From Candidatus Scalindua sp. (GTDB lineage: Bacteria > Planctomycetota > Brocadiia > Brocadiales > Scalinduaceae): a DNA stretch of 64,000 nucleotides. Positions 9,498 to 43,968 of this stretch are shown here, piece by piece (within the stretch, counting starts at the first letter, position 1; each line of letters opens with the position of its first letter). The notes under the pieces are model-generated. The model was not told where the DNA came from and did not search any database. It worked only from the letters and a program-made list of their open reading frames with translations. The DNA is taken from the NCBI GenBank assembly GCA_031316155.1, contig JALDRB010000018.1, forward strand, positions 1 to 64,000. The letters run 5' to 3'. Position numbers and translations under genes: made by a program.

Positions 9498-9592
9498 ATT
9501 CTAAAACCGATTTGGTTTTCGGTTTTACCTGTCTGCGTGCGTTCCTTTCCTTACGCACAGGCAGGCCCGAAAACCATTACGAGATGAGTATA
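9498..9592. repeat. Dispersed repeat element, short form, copy 2
   Basis: Begins CTAAAACCGATTTGGTTTTC and ends CATTACGAGATGAGTATA. Its centre is an inverted repeat CCTGTCTGCGTGCG/CGCACAGGCAGG that can fold. It lies 45 bases before the katG start codon, so the katG promoter is within or upstream of it. Its right half (9543-9590) recurs just after katG at 12121-12168 in the same orientation. Confidence 0.85.
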
Positions 9593-9597
9593 AATGA

Positions 9598-12120: not shown

Positions 12121-12168
12121 CCTTTCCTTACGCACAGGCAGGCCCGAAAACTATTACGAGATGAGTTA
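12121..12168. repeat. Dispersed repeat element, partial copy 3
   Basis: Forty-eight bases starting three bases after the katG stop codon, nearly identical to 9543-9590 (CTTTCCTTACGCACAGGCAG near the start, ATTACGAGATGAG near the end). Same orientation as copy 2, so katG sits between direct repeats. The left half of the element is missing. Confidence 0.8.
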
Positions 12169-12323
12169 TTATTTCTGCACGTGCCGGCAAGTCCCTGCAA
12201 CCGGGAAAATATTGAAAAAACGAGACAGTTATCATAATGAGTCTCGCCTTCTTACGCAGGCAACACGAGGAAAATAAAAGAATATACCGCAATGGCCTCG
12301 GTAATACCAATCAGGTTACTCCT

Positions 12324-15758: not shown

Positions 15759-15778
15759 GATTATCTATTTATTCTCAT

Positions 15779-15870
15779 ATACTAAAACCGATTTGGTTTT
15801 CTGTTTTACCTGTCTGCGTGCGTTCCTTACGCACAGGCAGGCCAGAAAATCATTACGAGATGAGTATATA
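15779..15870. repeat. Dispersed repeat element, short form, copy 4
   Basis: Starts ATACTAAAACCGATTTGG and ends CATTACGAGATGAGTATA, closely matching copy 2 at 9498. The right end overlaps the last codons of the minus-strand TDT-type gene, supplying its stop codon and final residues. Confidence 0.85.
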
Positions 15871-17163
15871 ATCATCAGAAATGTTTTGTGTGTGTTTACC
15901 ACCGGTGTGAATCGGCTCTCTCAAAAGAAGACTGCCGGTTAATGAACCCACATTAGGAGAAACCTGGTAGTAGCCATGAGACGCAGAGACAAGGGGCAAA
16001 GTTATGGTAACCATGGTGGTAACAAACCAACGGATACTGAACGAACATACCGCAATTTGTAAAATATGTATTGCTCTTCTGCGTAACGAATACCATTTTA
16101 TTGTCAATGCCTGCAAAGCTATTGTCTTCCATACAGGTATCACGATCAAGTGAGCAAGAGTAAAGGCTGAAGCAAAACAGTAGACAAGAGCGCCGGCAAT
16201 CGAACAATAGAGAGAAAACATGATAATGACATGTTCATCAAATAATCCGGTTAACTGCTTTGTGCCGGCAGCGTATAAAGACAGGGAAAGCACAATTTCC
16301 CAATACCCCACGGTAAACGGTATCGCCCGGCTGCCGTAAACCTGTTTTCTTATTGCCAGGATAATCAGAAATGGCAACCACCATAATCCTATAGACCAGA
16401 AAAAGAGAGAAAATCCTTTCAGGAACGGAAGCAAGTCCACAAAAGGGCCTCCCGTCATCTGCACCTGTTGATATAACGCTGCGCAGACAACTGTCGTAAC
16501 CGCCGCAGCTCCGGTATTCATCCAGTACGGTGACAGTTCTGTATCACGGGTGACGGGATAAAAAACAAGCCTCCAGATCATGAGCGTCATACATATCAGA
16601 TACAGAAATGTGCCAACAGACCACAACGCAAACGAAAAATATTGAATAAGCAGTGTATGCCCTGTCATCTGTCCGGCAACATCTACACTCAACAAGGCAG
16701 TAAACTGAGTGCCTGTTGTAACAAAGAACCATCCCCCGTGCAGGACATCTTCAATCTTTCGATCTTCAGATTTACGGTACAGAAACAGAATCGTGAACGT
16801 CGACAGCGTGATGCTTACCCAGAGGACAAGGGCCGCATACCAGAAAATGTATGTAACGGTATGCCAGCCAAACAGCTTAGAAGCACAGATACCCATGAGA
16901 GCCGCAATCCCGACAAGGGAGAAAGAGTACTGCAGCCTTTCAGGATCGAGCAACTCGTGTAAAAGATCTTCATAGTATAAGATCGCCTTGATAACCAGAA
17001 AAAGCGCCACGGTAAAGAACACTCCCATGCCTGTGATAAAAAGATAGGAAGATACCGAGCTGAAGCCATAAGAGGACGCACTGAGCGCCATCATGATCGT
17101 AGCCATACCCACAATAAACCAGCGGATGTTTACCGAATATGACGCGAATTGTAATATATTCAT
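15853..17163 (-). CDS. TDT/SLAC1-like anion channel fused to the start of a second copy
   Basis: Membrane protein of 436 residues. The first 360 or so look like a full TDT-family (TehA/SLAC1) protein with about ten helices and the block HGGWFFVTTGTQF near residue 142. Residues 367-402 (ILQIAVCSFSIRWFVTTMVT onward) repeat the N-terminus (ILQFASYSVNIRWFIVGMAT), so the start of a second paralogue is joined in frame. The last residues and the stop lie in a dispersed repeat copy. Family members carry small anions or C4-dicarboxylates; here nitrate or nitrite is suggested by NarK four bases upstream in the same operon. The added tail is odd and may be non-functional. Confidence 0.82.
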   Translation of the reverse strand: MNILQFASYSVNIRWFIVGMATIMMALSASSYGFSSVSSYLFITGMGVFFTVALFLVIKAILYYEDLLHELLDPERLQYSFSLVGIAALMGICASKLFGWHTVTYIFWYAALVLWVSITLSTFTILFLYRKSEDRKIEDVLHGGWFFVTTGTQFTALLSVDVAGQMTGHTLLIQYFSFALWSVGTFLYLICMTLMIWRLVFYPVTRDTELSPYWMNTGAAAVTTVVCAALYQQVQMTGGPFVDLLPFLKGFSLFFWSIGLWWLPFLIILAIRKQVYGSRAIPFTVGYWEIVLSLSLYAAGTKQLTGLFDEHVIIMFSLYCSIAGALVYCFASAFTLAHLIVIPVWKTIALQALTIKWYSLRRRAIHILQIAVCSFSIRWFVTTMVTITLPLVSASHGYYQVSPNVGSLTGSLLLREPIHTGGKHTQNISDDYILIS

Positions 17164-17167
17164 ACTA

Positions 17168-18502
17168 TTATAGTGTTATCGGTTCCATATTCTTAGCAAT
17201 CTTCTTGCCAATCTTCTTGCCAATCTTCTTGCCAATCTTCTTGCCAACCTCAGCAAAGATAATTTCTTCCTCTGGCATTTCATTGTTAACCCTTGGAGAA
17301 GTATTCTCCACTCTTGTTATTTTACCGTCCCTCTTTATAAATGTCTTCTTTTCCATAAAGGAGAGACACATCAGACAGACAAGAGATATGAAGATAAAGC
17401 CGAGAGAATTATTGTTGGTATACTCTTTGATTGTACACATTATTATCGGGAGAAAAAAACCTCCAAGCCCTCCGGCTGCTCCCACTACACCTCCTACGGT
17501 ACCGGTATCTTTTGGAAAATATTCCGCGACAAGTTTAAAAACAACACCATTACCGATACCTAATAAAATTGCCATGCAATAAAAAGCTGCAATGCCAAGT
17601 ATCAGAGAACTGTTCAGATTCAGGTAGAAGAGAACACCAATGAGTGAAAGGGAAAGAACTGTCAAAAGGTTTCTTCCCGAAAAGATGTCTCCCAGATACC
17701 CGCCTAAAATCCTTGAAAAAGTTGCCAGAAATACAAATACCGAAGTTAACGTTCCAGCCTTTATAGGCGTAACGCCGAAAGTATCTATGAGATAAGATGG
17801 CAGAAACAACGCAAAGCATACAAAAAAGCCAAAGGTCATAAAATAAAAAAGGGAAAAGACCCATATCAAATGTGAAGACTTATAAACCTTTAGCTTATCA
17901 TTGAATGTTTGAGGTATTACATTCTCCGGTTTCGGTGCATCAGCTGAAAAAATCCAGTAAAGAGCGGCCATCAAAAGTAAAGGAATGGAATAAAAAATAA
18001 ATGCCTTGTTCCATCCTACAGATTCTGCAATAAACGGCGCGCCAAAGACTGCCAGGGCAGTGCCTATATTCCCGACACCATAAATTCCCAGTGACAATCC
18101 CTGTTTTTCTCTGGGATACCATTGCGATACCTGGGGAATACCAACCGCAAATGATGCACCGGCTACACCAAAGAAAAAACCGCATACGAGTAACATCAGG
18201 TAACTATGTACAAAACCCGCAAAGAACATGGGGAAAAAAGTAAATAACAGCAGAGCGCTGAATACTTTTCTCCCCCCATATTTATCTGTCAAAATACCAA
18301 CTGGCACTCTGACAATAGAACCGAGTAAAACCGGTGTCGCAAGTAACAATCCTACTGCCGATGAAGACAGATTGAATTCCGCCTTCATATATACCGCTAA
18401 AGGGCCAAACAGAGACCAGCCGGCAAAGCATACGGCAAAAGCTAACGTAGCAAGTATCAGAACCCTTGTGTTTCCCTGTAATGTGACTGCAGAGTTACTC
18501 AT
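17168..18502 (-). CDS. narK: NarK-type nitrate/nitrite transporter (MFS)
   Basis: Major facilitator with twelve predicted helices, 444 residues. It carries the nitrate-signature regions: GGVVGAAGGLGGFFLP in the second half and a glycine-rich helix GIGNGVVFKLV before it, plus the MFS loop motif DKYGGRKVF. It moves nitrate in or nitrite out across the cytoplasmic membrane. The last 40 residues are charged and include a fourfold GKKI repeat coded by a 12-bp tandem repeat. Followed at four bases by the TDT-like channel gene; preceded by PAS, Cache and response-regulator genes on the same strand, so expression is probably tied to that sensor set. Confidence 0.93.
   Translation of the reverse strand: MSNSAVTLQGNTRVLILATLAFAVCFAGWSLFGPLAVYMKAEFNLSSSAVGLLLATPVLLGSIVRVPVGILTDKYGGRKVFSALLLFTFFPMFFAGFVHSYLMLLVCGFFFGVAGASFAVGIPQVSQWYPREKQGLSLGIYGVGNIGTALAVFGAPFIAESVGWNKAFIFYSIPLLLMAALYWIFSADAPKPENVIPQTFNDKLKVYKSSHLIWVFSLFYFMTFGFFVCFALFLPSYLIDTFGVTPIKAGTLTSVFVFLATFSRILGGYLGDIFSGRNLLTVLSLSLIGVLFYLNLNSSLILGIAAFYCMAILLGIGNGVVFKLVAEYFPKDTGTVGGVVGAAGGLGGFFLPIIMCTIKEYTNNNSLGFIFISLVCLMCLSFMEKKTFIKRDGKITRVENTSPRVNNEMPEEEIIFAEVGKKIGKKIGKKIGKKIAKNMEPITL
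17198..17245. repeat. Four-copy 12-bp tandem repeat in the narK 3' end
   Basis: The unit AATCTTCTTGCC (plus strand) occurs four times without a change, coding the repeated GKKI tail of the transporter. Units of 12 bases keep the reading frame, so copy number can change by slippage without breaking the gene. Confidence 0.93.
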
Positions 18503-18566: not shown

Positions 18567-19028
18567 CTATATATACTGAAAAAATTCGAAGCTGGACTGA
18601 ACCTTTGAGGGTAAATGGTAATAGTGATCATCAACAATGAGCTTACTGTTTTGTTTTATATAAAACAGTTTGTCTTCTCTTCCTTTCATGAGAGTAAAAA
18701 AAACATTTACCTTTCCATCCCTGATCAACATGGATAAGGTCTTTTCATGATCATATGGATGTGCATACAACTCATTAATCTTTTTTCCAATTACCTCATC
18801 GGGAGAGGTGAAACCGAGAAGTCTTGCACCTTCAATATCAATATTCAACAGAACACCATCATACGATGATTCATACTCAAACCACCCCTTTTTTGTCGCT
18901 TTTGTTGCAACGTCCTGTTTTACACCTTGATTTTTTACTCTTTCCTCTGTTGACAAAATTGCGTTATTCATTGATAACTCCTTTTGATTTTTTACTTTTT
19001 CCTTTGTTGATAAAATTGCGTTGCTCAT
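18567..19028 (-). CDS. Single PAS-domain protein with duplicated N-terminus
   Basis: Soluble protein of 153 residues. Residues about 50-150 form one PAS domain (GVLLNIDIEGARLLGFTSPDEVIGKKI region, then INELYAHPYDHE). The first 34 residues contain a repeated peptide, NAILSTKEKVKNQ and NAILSTEERVKNQ, caused by a 57-bp tandem duplication that also copied the ribosome site, so translation may start at M1 or M20. There is no output domain. It sits between the Cache receptor and narK on the same strand and resembles the PAS region of the receptor at 2161-3723. Likely a stand-alone signalling module for this cluster; ligand unknown. Confidence 0.78.
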   Translation of the reverse strand: MSNAILSTKEKVKNQKELSMNNAILSTEERVKNQGVKQDVATKATKKGWFEYESSYDGVLLNIDIEGARLLGFTSPDEVIGKKINELYAHPYDHEKTLSMLIRDGKVNVFFTLMKGREDKLFYIKQNSKLIVDDHYYHLPSKVQSSFEFFQYI

Positions 19029-19042
19029 TAATTACTCCTTTC
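18914..19042. repeat. 57-bp tandem duplication carrying a ribosome site and start codon
   Basis: On the minus strand GGAGTAATTAATG (start at 19028) and GGAGTTATCAATG (start at 18971) each precede a near-identical coding stretch. The two units are 57 bases apart and in frame. The boundaries given are approximate. Confidence 0.7.
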
Positions 19043-19112: not shown

Positions 19113-20633
19113 TTAATTCCACACTGCTACTTTTTTTTCCGGTGAGAAATCTTCGTCTTTTATAAACTCATCATCCTTATCTTCCGGTTGAAGAATATTT
19201 TCAGACCTCAATTTGTGATACTCTCTCTTGAACTCCTGCATGTTATCTTCGATAAAGGATTCCTTTTTTCGGGAACCAAATGTACCGATTTCACCAAATA
19301 CACTAAGAGGGTTGGATATCCTGTACTGTTGTTCTCTGACATACCCGCGCTCTTTATTCAATTCATACCCATCCATGATAGCTGTCAGAAAGCCTACCAT
19401 TACAATAATCGCTACACCAATTAAGGTCTTTTTGGGAAGAGCCATATTTTTTATCATGTAGCCAACACTCATTTTTCTGTGTACCAGCGAGGCGATAACG
19501 ATTGCAGGAATAATAATCACGAGCATGAGAGACTTTATCATTGTATTAATGTTATTTACCGTAACGAATGCTTCATCGGCATCTATTTCAACCATGAGTC
19601 CCATGTCCAGATCTTCCAGCCATGACCATGCGCCGACGACTTTAATGCCCCCATAATCATGATACCCTTGCAGGTCTTGACCGGTTGTCTTTTCCGTTAT
19701 GCATGCTGTTACCCCTTTTGTTAACATATTTGTATTCGGGTCCTGCACGGTGTGAGACGTTTTCCAGGTATCACCTGCATCTTTCATATGATGACGGGAA
19801 AATCTTGATTCTGTGATCATGGTACCGTCTCCATTTACCAAATACGTTTCCCCTGTCTTTCCTAATACAAAATTTTTCGTTACCTCATCCAGCATGGACA
19901 TCTCCATCCAGAGTAAAACAGCCCCGGTGACCCGATGGTCAGCCCCCTTGATGGGGTACGATATAAACAGAGAAGGCGCCTCATCCTGCTGTTCTTCATC
20001 CGTAATAATATCTGGTGTGTGCTGCATCCTCTGCCATGGAAGGTATGGCTGGGGAGTCATTCTATTATGTGATACTTTATCAACAGAGAAGTGAGTAATA
20101 TCTGAAATATGTGATTTGCCATCATGCAGAGTCTTCTGAACCACTTGAAATGGGTTGTCCTTCACGATATTCATACCCTTCAGTTTAAAGGTATTTTCCT
20201 TCATGATATCCAAACCCGTAAGTGATTTTTCGCCTAAAGTAGTCAGATGGATTTTACCATCGGCATCACACACGAATATCCCTTTATAACCATAATCCGC
20301 CTTTGCACATTCCATTTGAGCTTTTAACCGTAAATACTCCTGCTCGTTGCCTTCATCTATTATACTCACGAAATCTTTGTGTCCGTAAATCAGTTCGGTA
20401 CTTTGAATAGCATCGGAAATAGAACGTGCATGAGATCTCCTCTCTTCCAGAAAAAGGTTCAGACTGTTTTTTTGTTTAAGGAGCGCTTCATCCAGATTTG
20501 TTTTAACATGCTGTTTCAACTCATCTTTTGCATTGGGAAATGCAACAACTCTAAATAACATAAGTGGTAATAAAGAAAAAAAGATAAGGGTAACGGTAAT
20601 GAGTACTATACTCTCTTTAAATAACCTTTTCAT
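19113..20633 (-). CDS. Cache-domain membrane receptor fused to a GYVRE membrane module
   Basis: Receptor of 506 residues. An N-terminal helix (about 8-30) and a double-Cache sensor (to about 360) are homologous to the receptor at 2161-3723 (compare DYGYKGIFV, LGKTGETYLVNGDG, and GYHDYGGIKVVGAWSWL). Two further helices follow at about 370-392 and 405-425. The second ends in a segment with RGYVREQQY like the separate small protein at 3840-4244, then a charged tail. HAMP and PAS domains and any kinase are absent. Downstream on the strand are a PAS protein and narK; upstream is a response regulator. It probably senses an anion outside the cell; the route of output is unclear. Confidence 0.85.
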   Translation of the reverse strand: MKRLFKESIVLITVTLIFFSLLPLMLFRVVAFPNAKDELKQHVKTNLDEALLKQKNSLNLFLEERRSHARSISDAIQSTELIYGHKDFVSIIDEGNEQEYLRLKAQMECAKADYGYKGIFVCDADGKIHLTTLGEKSLTGLDIMKENTFKLKGMNIVKDNPFQVVQKTLHDGKSHISDITHFSVDKVSHNRMTPQPYLPWQRMQHTPDIITDEEQQDEAPSLFISYPIKGADHRVTGAVLLWMEMSMLDEVTKNFVLGKTGETYLVNGDGTMITESRFSRHHMKDAGDTWKTSHTVQDPNTNMLTKGVTACITEKTTGQDLQGYHDYGGIKVVGAWSWLEDLDMGLMVEIDADEAFVTVNNINTMIKSLMLVIIIPAIVIASLVHRKMSVGYMIKNMALPKKTLIGVAIIVMVGFLTAIMDGYELNKERGYVREQQYRISNPLSVFGEIGTFGSRKKESFIEDNMQEFKREYHKLRSENILQPEDKDDEFIKDEDFSPEKKVAVWN

Positions 20634-20694: not shown

Positions 20695-21063
20695 TCAATC
20701 AACTATTTCGTTAAGACATAACTTAATATCATCCATGCTAAACGGTTTTCTAATTACTTTTTTTGCCCCTTTACAGATTGCCTTCCTTGCCATATCTTCA
20801 CATGTATAAGCAGTAATAATTATGATATTGCAGGGATAGTGTGCTTTTTGTATCTGCTCTAACAACTCGATCCCATCCATACCGGGCATTTTCATGTCTA
20901 ATAATACCGCTGTGTAATTCACCTTTTTCATAGCCTGGAGTGCTTCAAATCCGCAAGTTGCCACAGTTGTCTCATAGCCGATATCTGACAATGAATTTGA
21001 CAACACTTTCCTATACCCTTCTTCATCATCAACAATCAGTATTCTTTTTGATATCATTCTCAT
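20695..21063 (-). CDS. Single-domain response regulator (receiver only)
   Basis: CheY-like receiver of 122 residues. The acid pocket D12, D13, phosphoacceptor D56 (LLDMKMPGMDG), T84 and K106 (IRKPFS) are all in place, so phosphorylation is expected. There is no DNA-binding or enzymatic output domain. It lies 61 bases upstream of the Cache receptor gene on the same strand and is probably the first gene of the RR-Cache-PAS-NarK-TDT set. No histidine kinase is in this window, so the kinase must be elsewhere, or the regulator works by protein contact. Confidence 0.92.
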   Translation of the reverse strand: MRMISKRILIVDDEEGYRKVLSNSLSDIGYETTVATCGFEALQAMKKVNYTAVLLDMKMPGMDGIELLEQIQKAHYPCNIIIITAYTCEDMARKAICKGAKKVIRKPFSMDDIKLCLNEIVD

Positions 21064-43709: not shown

Positions 43710-43753
43710 CTTTAATTCACCTTTCTGTTATCATCAATATTCATGAAATTTGT

Positions 43754-43968
43754 TATACTCATCTCTTAATCATTTTCTGGCCTGCCTGTGCGTAAGGAAC
43801 GCACGCAGACAGGTAAAATCCGTGATAAAACTGAGCGAGTAAGGTCCTCTGCGCTTTTTGTCCGGGGAAAGTCCTCGGCGTCTGTCCGGGGATACCTTCA
43901 CCAAGGTTTGGTTTTTAGAAAAAGCTAAAACCACATCGGTTTTAGCATATTACATAAAATGAGTATAT
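43754..43968. repeat. Dispersed repeat element, long form, copy 5
   Basis: Begins TATACTCATCTCTTAATCAT and carries CCTGCCTGTGCGTAAGGAAC, then the same internal GAGCGAGTAAGG and TCCGGGG block as copy 1, and the AAAACCACATCGGTTTTAG right end. It runs into the 3' end of the siroheme reductase gene. It combines features of the long copy (931) and the short copies (9498, 15779), linking them as one family. Confidence 0.85.

Follow-up and report, generated by a model that had tools for sequence, protein, structure and literature searches.

The window, which here means the whole 64,000-nt stretch analysed (contig JALDRB010000018.1 of Candidatus Scalindua sp., from a draft assembly in 26 contigs, below G000), carries on its minus strand a channel gene, with a gene for a NarK-like transporter just upstream and a palindromic repeat element across the channel gene's 3′ end. 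The features at the locus, with the basis for each in brackets, are the following.

15778-15868, strand not assigned: 91-bp palindromic repeat element with ends TATACT/AGTATA (alignment of copies)
15853-17163, minus strand: channel ORF, 436 aa, ATG start
15856-15957, minus strand: rest of the tail, residues 403-436 (recognisable in relatives' tails)
15958-16071, minus strand: tail repeat, residues 365-402, a partial further unit with ATG changed to ATA (repeat alignment)
16072-17163, minus strand: complete channel unit, residues 1-364, 1092 bp (PF03595, AlphaFold/Foldseek, common unit length)
17050-17163, minus strand: N-terminal block, residues 1-38, where the repeated stretch first occurs (alignment score 85)
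17168-18502, minus strand: NarK-like MFS transporter (PF07690)
18567-19028, minus strand: PAS-like protein (weak PAS matches under the cut-offs; conserved order)
19113-20633, minus strand: Cache-domain sensor-like membrane protein (dCache_1, E 1.9e-10, just under the cut-off)
20695-21063, minus strand: response-regulator receiver protein (PF00072, E 4.9e-28)

The channel ORF consists of one SLAC1/TDT unit of 364 residues and a tail of 72 residues. The match to PF03595 (SLAC1) spans residues 12-336 and is above the cut-off (E 5.3e-30; 105.1 bits, cut-off 27.9). With TIGR00816, which describes the TDT subfamily proper, the protein scores 51.5 bits, far under the NCBI cut-off of 237.25; the score of its fused counterpart in the related genome G001 is 90.7 (same cut-off).

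An internal repeat of the start block

The tail opens with a second version of the start of the unit. Residues 365-402 match residues 1-38 without a gap and with a local score of 85, while 2000 shuffles of the tail gave a mean of 30.1 (SD 4.8) and a maximum of 59, so the repeat is real and far beyond chance. An ungapped scan over offsets 40-364 gave residues 365-404 a score of 82 at offset 364 (runner-up offset, 21). Over the 38 codons identity is 45% at the amino acid and 62% at the nucleotide level, and codon 365 is ATA where the corresponding codon 1 is ATG. A sequence-only reading made earlier had picked out this repeat of the N-terminal block, with its start codon changed from ATG to ATA, and on both points it was right, the tail being in phase with the beginning of the unit that it partly copies; the limits that it gave, 367-402, are correct as a range, but the match actually begins at 365. 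It had also pointed to 15870-15900 as the junction. The similarity to the unit ends instead at about 15958, and no likeness to the channel unit was seen in residues 403-436.

Relatives with two fused units

The channel or a paralogue is present in 45 of 59 related genomes searched. Within the Scalinduaceae the family-wide search gave a match in 14 of 17 genomes, and the channel itself, defined at about 68% identity or more, is found in seven of the 17, the window's included; the remaining genomes have paralogues at only about 30-35% or no match. In five of these seven (G001, G006, G012, G013 and G015) a single ORF of 774-840 aa spans two complete units. The start blocks are exactly 364 residues apart in all five fused proteins, and Pfam finds two SLAC1 stretches in each of the two that were scanned. 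The 12 complete units of the seven genomes have the same length and can be aligned position by position without an indel, while the first unit (A) and the second (B) of the five fused relatives differ at 16-22% of nucleotides. In G010 a stop closely follows the single unit and there is no tail. The protein of the window genome, one unit followed by the tail, keeps the fixed 364-aa period of the tandem-fused Scalinduaceae channel but lacks the second complete unit. The tandem pair of TDT channels envisaged from the window alone does therefore have a counterpart among relatives, as tandem units, though these are fused in a single ORF and are not two genes. In an rpoB tree G000 and G001 stand together, and G010 falls in another branch of the g2 clade than its four fused genomes.

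Single-unit relatives at about 50% identity occur in Brocadia, Jettenia, Loosdrechtia and other Planctomycetota. One channel relative, at G053:C12:1421160-1422268, is interrupted by several stops. In a phylum sample of 392 genomes, which took in only few Scalinduaceae, a SLAC1 match was present in 52 and two matches in one long ORF were seen only in G006, itself a Scalinduaceae genome; among 83 matching ORFs in 80 loci, two complete copies were confined to four Scalindua loci. No fused pair was seen outside the Scalinduaceae in the samples searched. Literature searches returned no report of fused or tandem SLAC1/TehA units, nor of SLAC1 in anammox bacteria, and the available portions of two anammox transport papers make no mention of tellurite, dicarboxylate or SLAC1. 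Tandem-fused SLAC1/TDT channels are probably a Scalinduaceae-specific family of which the window gene is a one-unit member, a judgement that applies jointly to the whole explanation put together below.

Age and probable decay of the tail

Six of the seven channel-bearing Scalinduaceae genomes have the tail behind their last unit, and G010 alone is without it. A partial third unit is detected by hmmsearch after unit B in three proteins (i-E 7.9e-7, 3.2e-7 and 1.2e-5), and in G001, where only 25 codons are left, with an i-E of 0.41. Beyond residue 402 the window tail is recognisable in G013, G015 and partly G012, by motifs of the kind LLREPI..GGKHTQN..DDYI and FLRETV..GTKHPQN..GDYI. Tail lengths are 25, 65, 72, 84, 84 and 108 codons, and the position of the stop varies in most genomes.

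Sequence comparison points to different pressures on units and tails. The units have dN/dS values of 0.18-0.28 (11 pairs), the mark of purifying selection. Tails within the g2 clade are close to neutrality, at 0.80-0.91 in five pairs and 3.35, from about six changes, in the sixth, and there the tail looks like a decaying remnant. The window tail against g2 tails gives 0.44-0.84, and against the G001 tail 0.24 over 25 codons only; G001 against g2 tails gives 0.19-0.29 in three pairs, again over just 25 codons, with the fourth pair not computable. In the genus of G000 and G001 the tail may accordingly be constrained, chiefly near its start when G001 is in the comparison.

These relatives bear on how the tail arose. 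The sequence-only reading took it for the stump of a second channel copy, the recent partner of a tandem pair in the window lineage, deleted with the repeat element at the junction. The tail is indeed a partial second copy and the element does overlap the end of the ORF; however, in every one of the five fused relatives a tail of the identical kind comes after the complete unit B, and some 90 bp separate the element from the point where the repeat similarity ends. That intervening stretch of tail is, moreover, recognisable in relatives that have no element. A recent deletion with the element at its junction is rejected by the relatives' tails, and the account as a whole is very improbable. Given its place behind unit B in those relatives, the tail is better regarded as old: the remnant of a further, mostly lost unit common to the family, and not something that a recent deletion left in the window.

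The repeat element and a missing carbonic anhydrase

The stop codon (15853-15855) and the final four codons of the channel gene come from the element; that the last codons lie in an element copy had been noticed beforehand. In the window this copy forms a long hairpin. Further copies in the window are at 9513-9594 and 43753-43818, with part of one at 12122-12171. Among the matches listed there are at least 43 in the window genome (scoring covered 40 of 274 candidates), 37 in G001, which are weaker, and between 0 and 6 per genome in the remaining 15 Scalinduaceae genomes. G013 and G015 have GATTATATA where the window element starts, without the element, which suggests insertion at a TATA site.

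What comes next to the channel differs between G001 and the window. After the channel, G001 has an alpha-carbonic anhydrase gene (PF00194) and then rubrerythrin, and the window has the element and then rubrerythrin. The carbonic anhydrase gene lies directly after the channel in two genomes, the products being 72% identical:

L042:10948-11718, plus strand: alpha-carbonic anhydrase of G001
L043:420-1187, minus strand: alpha-carbonic anhydrase of G010

A search of the window genome for a carbonic anhydrase gave no match. Since this gene is missing where the element is found in the window, the element marks the loss of the carbonic anhydrase, or adjoins its site, rather than a loss of channel sequence.

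Gain or loss of a unit

The module of the family is an in-frame 1092-bp (364-aa) unit, its start block recurring at the head of each later unit with ATG changed to ATA, and once more as the worn tail. As the start block recurs at each unit and in the tail, recombination of these direct repeats with one another could add or remove an entire unit while keeping the reading frame. The states to be accounted for in this way are unit-unit-tail in relatives, unit-tail in the window genome and unit alone in one relative. Two histories may connect them. In one, unit-unit-tail was already present in the Scalinduaceae ancestor; recombination between units then cost the window genome and G010 a unit apiece, and gene conversion made the two units of G001 alike. 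In the other, the unit-plus-tail form of the window is ancestral, and G001 and the g2 clade each doubled it separately, through unequal exchange of the start block with the tail. Loss of a unit in the window lineage and independent gain elsewhere are, on the sequences at hand, about equally likely; each history falls somewhat short of an even chance, independent doubling by the slightly smaller shortfall.

Independent doubling fits the trees best, though not decisively. The B units of the four g2 genomes cluster (99/98 protein, 100 DNA), as do the A units of three of the four (97/94 protein, 100 DNA), the placement of G015A being less sure. G001A and G001B also cluster (96/96 protein, 82 DNA; 84 at the nucleotide level with outgroups), and the best full-length tree, in which g2 A and B stand apart from the rest, counts against an ancestral pair. 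Constraining the trees to one old duplication, in either of two ways, worsens lnL by 5.7 and 6.5, a difference that is, however, not significant (AU p 0.26 and 0.14). Against independent doubling it can also be said that two exchanges are needed at nearly one place, and that over the first 375 nt G000 clusters with G001A alone and not with the two G001 units together (78).

The case for an ancestral pair comes from a mosaic pattern at 37 sites where the four g2 genomes show a fixed difference between units A and B. The single unit of G000 is A-like in its first third (14:1) and B-like in its last third (3:10), and that of G010 likewise (14:1, then 2:10), as a recombinant of A and B would be. 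Nine Brocadiaceae-side outgroups show no such switch (10:6, 9:4), but they are about 50% diverged and saturated. G001A, however, has the same A-to-B switch (13:3, 4:8), as G001B does weakly (11:4, 6:7), and because G001A shows it the mosaic in the window unit is suggestive only.

A second pattern, found in both genera and also in keeping with an ancestral pair, is at the start of unit B, where the first 22 nt or so are tail-like and the remainder unit-like. In a test with few sites, ten runs and uncorrected p values, G001B has five tail sites to one unit site up to nt 30 and then 1:8 (p 0.011), the tail-like start gives p 0.021-0.045 in three g2 genomes and 0.09 in the fourth, and with another reference set the g2 switch is lost (p 0.17-1.0). 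On these patterns, recombination of the start block with the tail, or of one unit with another, is plausible as a mechanism.

It is also conceivable that the single unit of the window is an assembler's collapse of two, the assembly being a draft and tandem repeats being prone to collapse. The difference of A and B in the five fused relatives is nevertheless too great for this, and only a recent homogenisation would permit it, so that collapse has very little to recommend it.

Fold and gate

The AlphaFold model of the window protein has an overall pLDDT of 75.9, with the tail as one helix (363-395) of low confidence. Foldseek returned 21 matches at E<=0.001, to SLAC1 (6), 'At S1/S3 trimer' (6), TehA (8) and 4ycr, whose title names no protein, and the model has the SLAC1/TehA fold. 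A sequence search of solved structures (profile, E 0.001; single protein, E 10) found no match. A model of the fused protein, made from a seven-row alignment, had a mean pLDDT of 39.5; it was unusable and is left out. The protein is most likely a channel of SLAC1/TehA type with one extra, weakly constrained C-terminal helix, for which any role would be putative.

Passages of PMC10645844 describe SLAC1 as a trimer that passes chloride and nitrate, with F450 part of the AtSLAC1 gate and F450-P451 in the ninth helix; the F262A change in TehA is described there as raising conductance. When we placed the gate position on our alignment, the non-anammox canonical relatives had Phe there in 13 of 13, followed by Pro in 12 and by X in one. 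The window protein has Leu-Ser instead of Phe-Pro, at unit positions 292-293 (16285-16290). Among the 12 Scalinduaceae units it is Leu-Ala or Leu-Ser in 11, mostly Leu-Ala, and Phe-Ala in one; the four Brocadiaceae-side sequences checked have Phe-Ala. The gate residue is not decisive for membership in the fold family; the gate of the putative nitrate/nitrite anion channel may be altered.

Gene neighbourhood and likely substrate

The NarK-like gene scores 236.5 bits with TIGR00886 (NarK family), under the cut-off of 311.7. Most of the loci compared, in both families, preserve the gene order response regulator, Cache sensor, PAS-like protein, NarK, channel, and NarK adjoins the channel in all 16 relative loci examined. 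According to parts of the Scalindua profunda paper (PMC3655542), narK there is flanked by genes not assigned to nitrate assimilation. Because it adjoins NarK in a conserved group, the window protein is probably, going by gene neighbourhood, a nitrate/nitrite anion channel, and the carbonic anhydrase beside the channel in other genomes hints at bicarbonate as another possible substrate. Two small repeats were also seen in the flanking genes: a 12-bp repeat in 4.2 perfect copies at the NarK 3′ end (17197-17247), giving a GKKI repeat at the C-terminus, and a 57-bp tandem pair (87% matches; 18927-19041) which doubles the N-terminus of the PAS-like protein.

The explanation that, taken as a whole, we consider likely is that the window gene is a one-unit member of a family in which whole units are gained or lost in frame, and that it encodes a nitrate/nitrite channel of SLAC1/TehA-type fold.

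Relation to known systems and implications

With SLAC1/TehA (TDT, PF03595) the window protein shares sequence family, fold and placement in a membrane anion channel family. It differs in its C-terminal start-of-unit helix, in having Scalinduaceae relatives with two fused units, and in the gate residues and low TIGR00816 score already given. The NarK-linked channel of the Brocadiaceae (Brocadia, Jettenia, Loosdrechtia) has about 50% unit identity with it and the same place after NarK, but consists of one unit followed by some 70 aa of unrelated C-terminal sequence, with Phe-Ala at the gate in the four checked. Hydrazine synthase (HZS) of Scalindua profunda, in parts of PMC3655542, is likewise a case of subunits, beta and gamma, in one chain in Scalindua; the fused channel, however, joins two units of the same kind, and its known relatives are, in the passages cited above, trimers.

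One may speculate, though we think it unlikely, that the Scalinduaceae adjust how many pores each polypeptide of this normally trimeric channel carries, by adding and removing the 1092-bp unit in frame with the start block as recombination handle; the tail would then be the remnant of a third unit, and the ancestor possibly a three-unit, single-chain trimer. The finding bears on nitrate/nitrite movement in Scalindua, a NarK-adjacent channel going unmentioned in the available portions of the Scalindua paper. The trimers known for SLAC1-type channels are built of separate chains; a two-in-one version that occurs naturally, next to a nitrate transporter in marine anammox bacteria, raises the testable question of how the fused pair assembles, and the family provides a case of in-frame change in the copy number of a whole domain in evolution.
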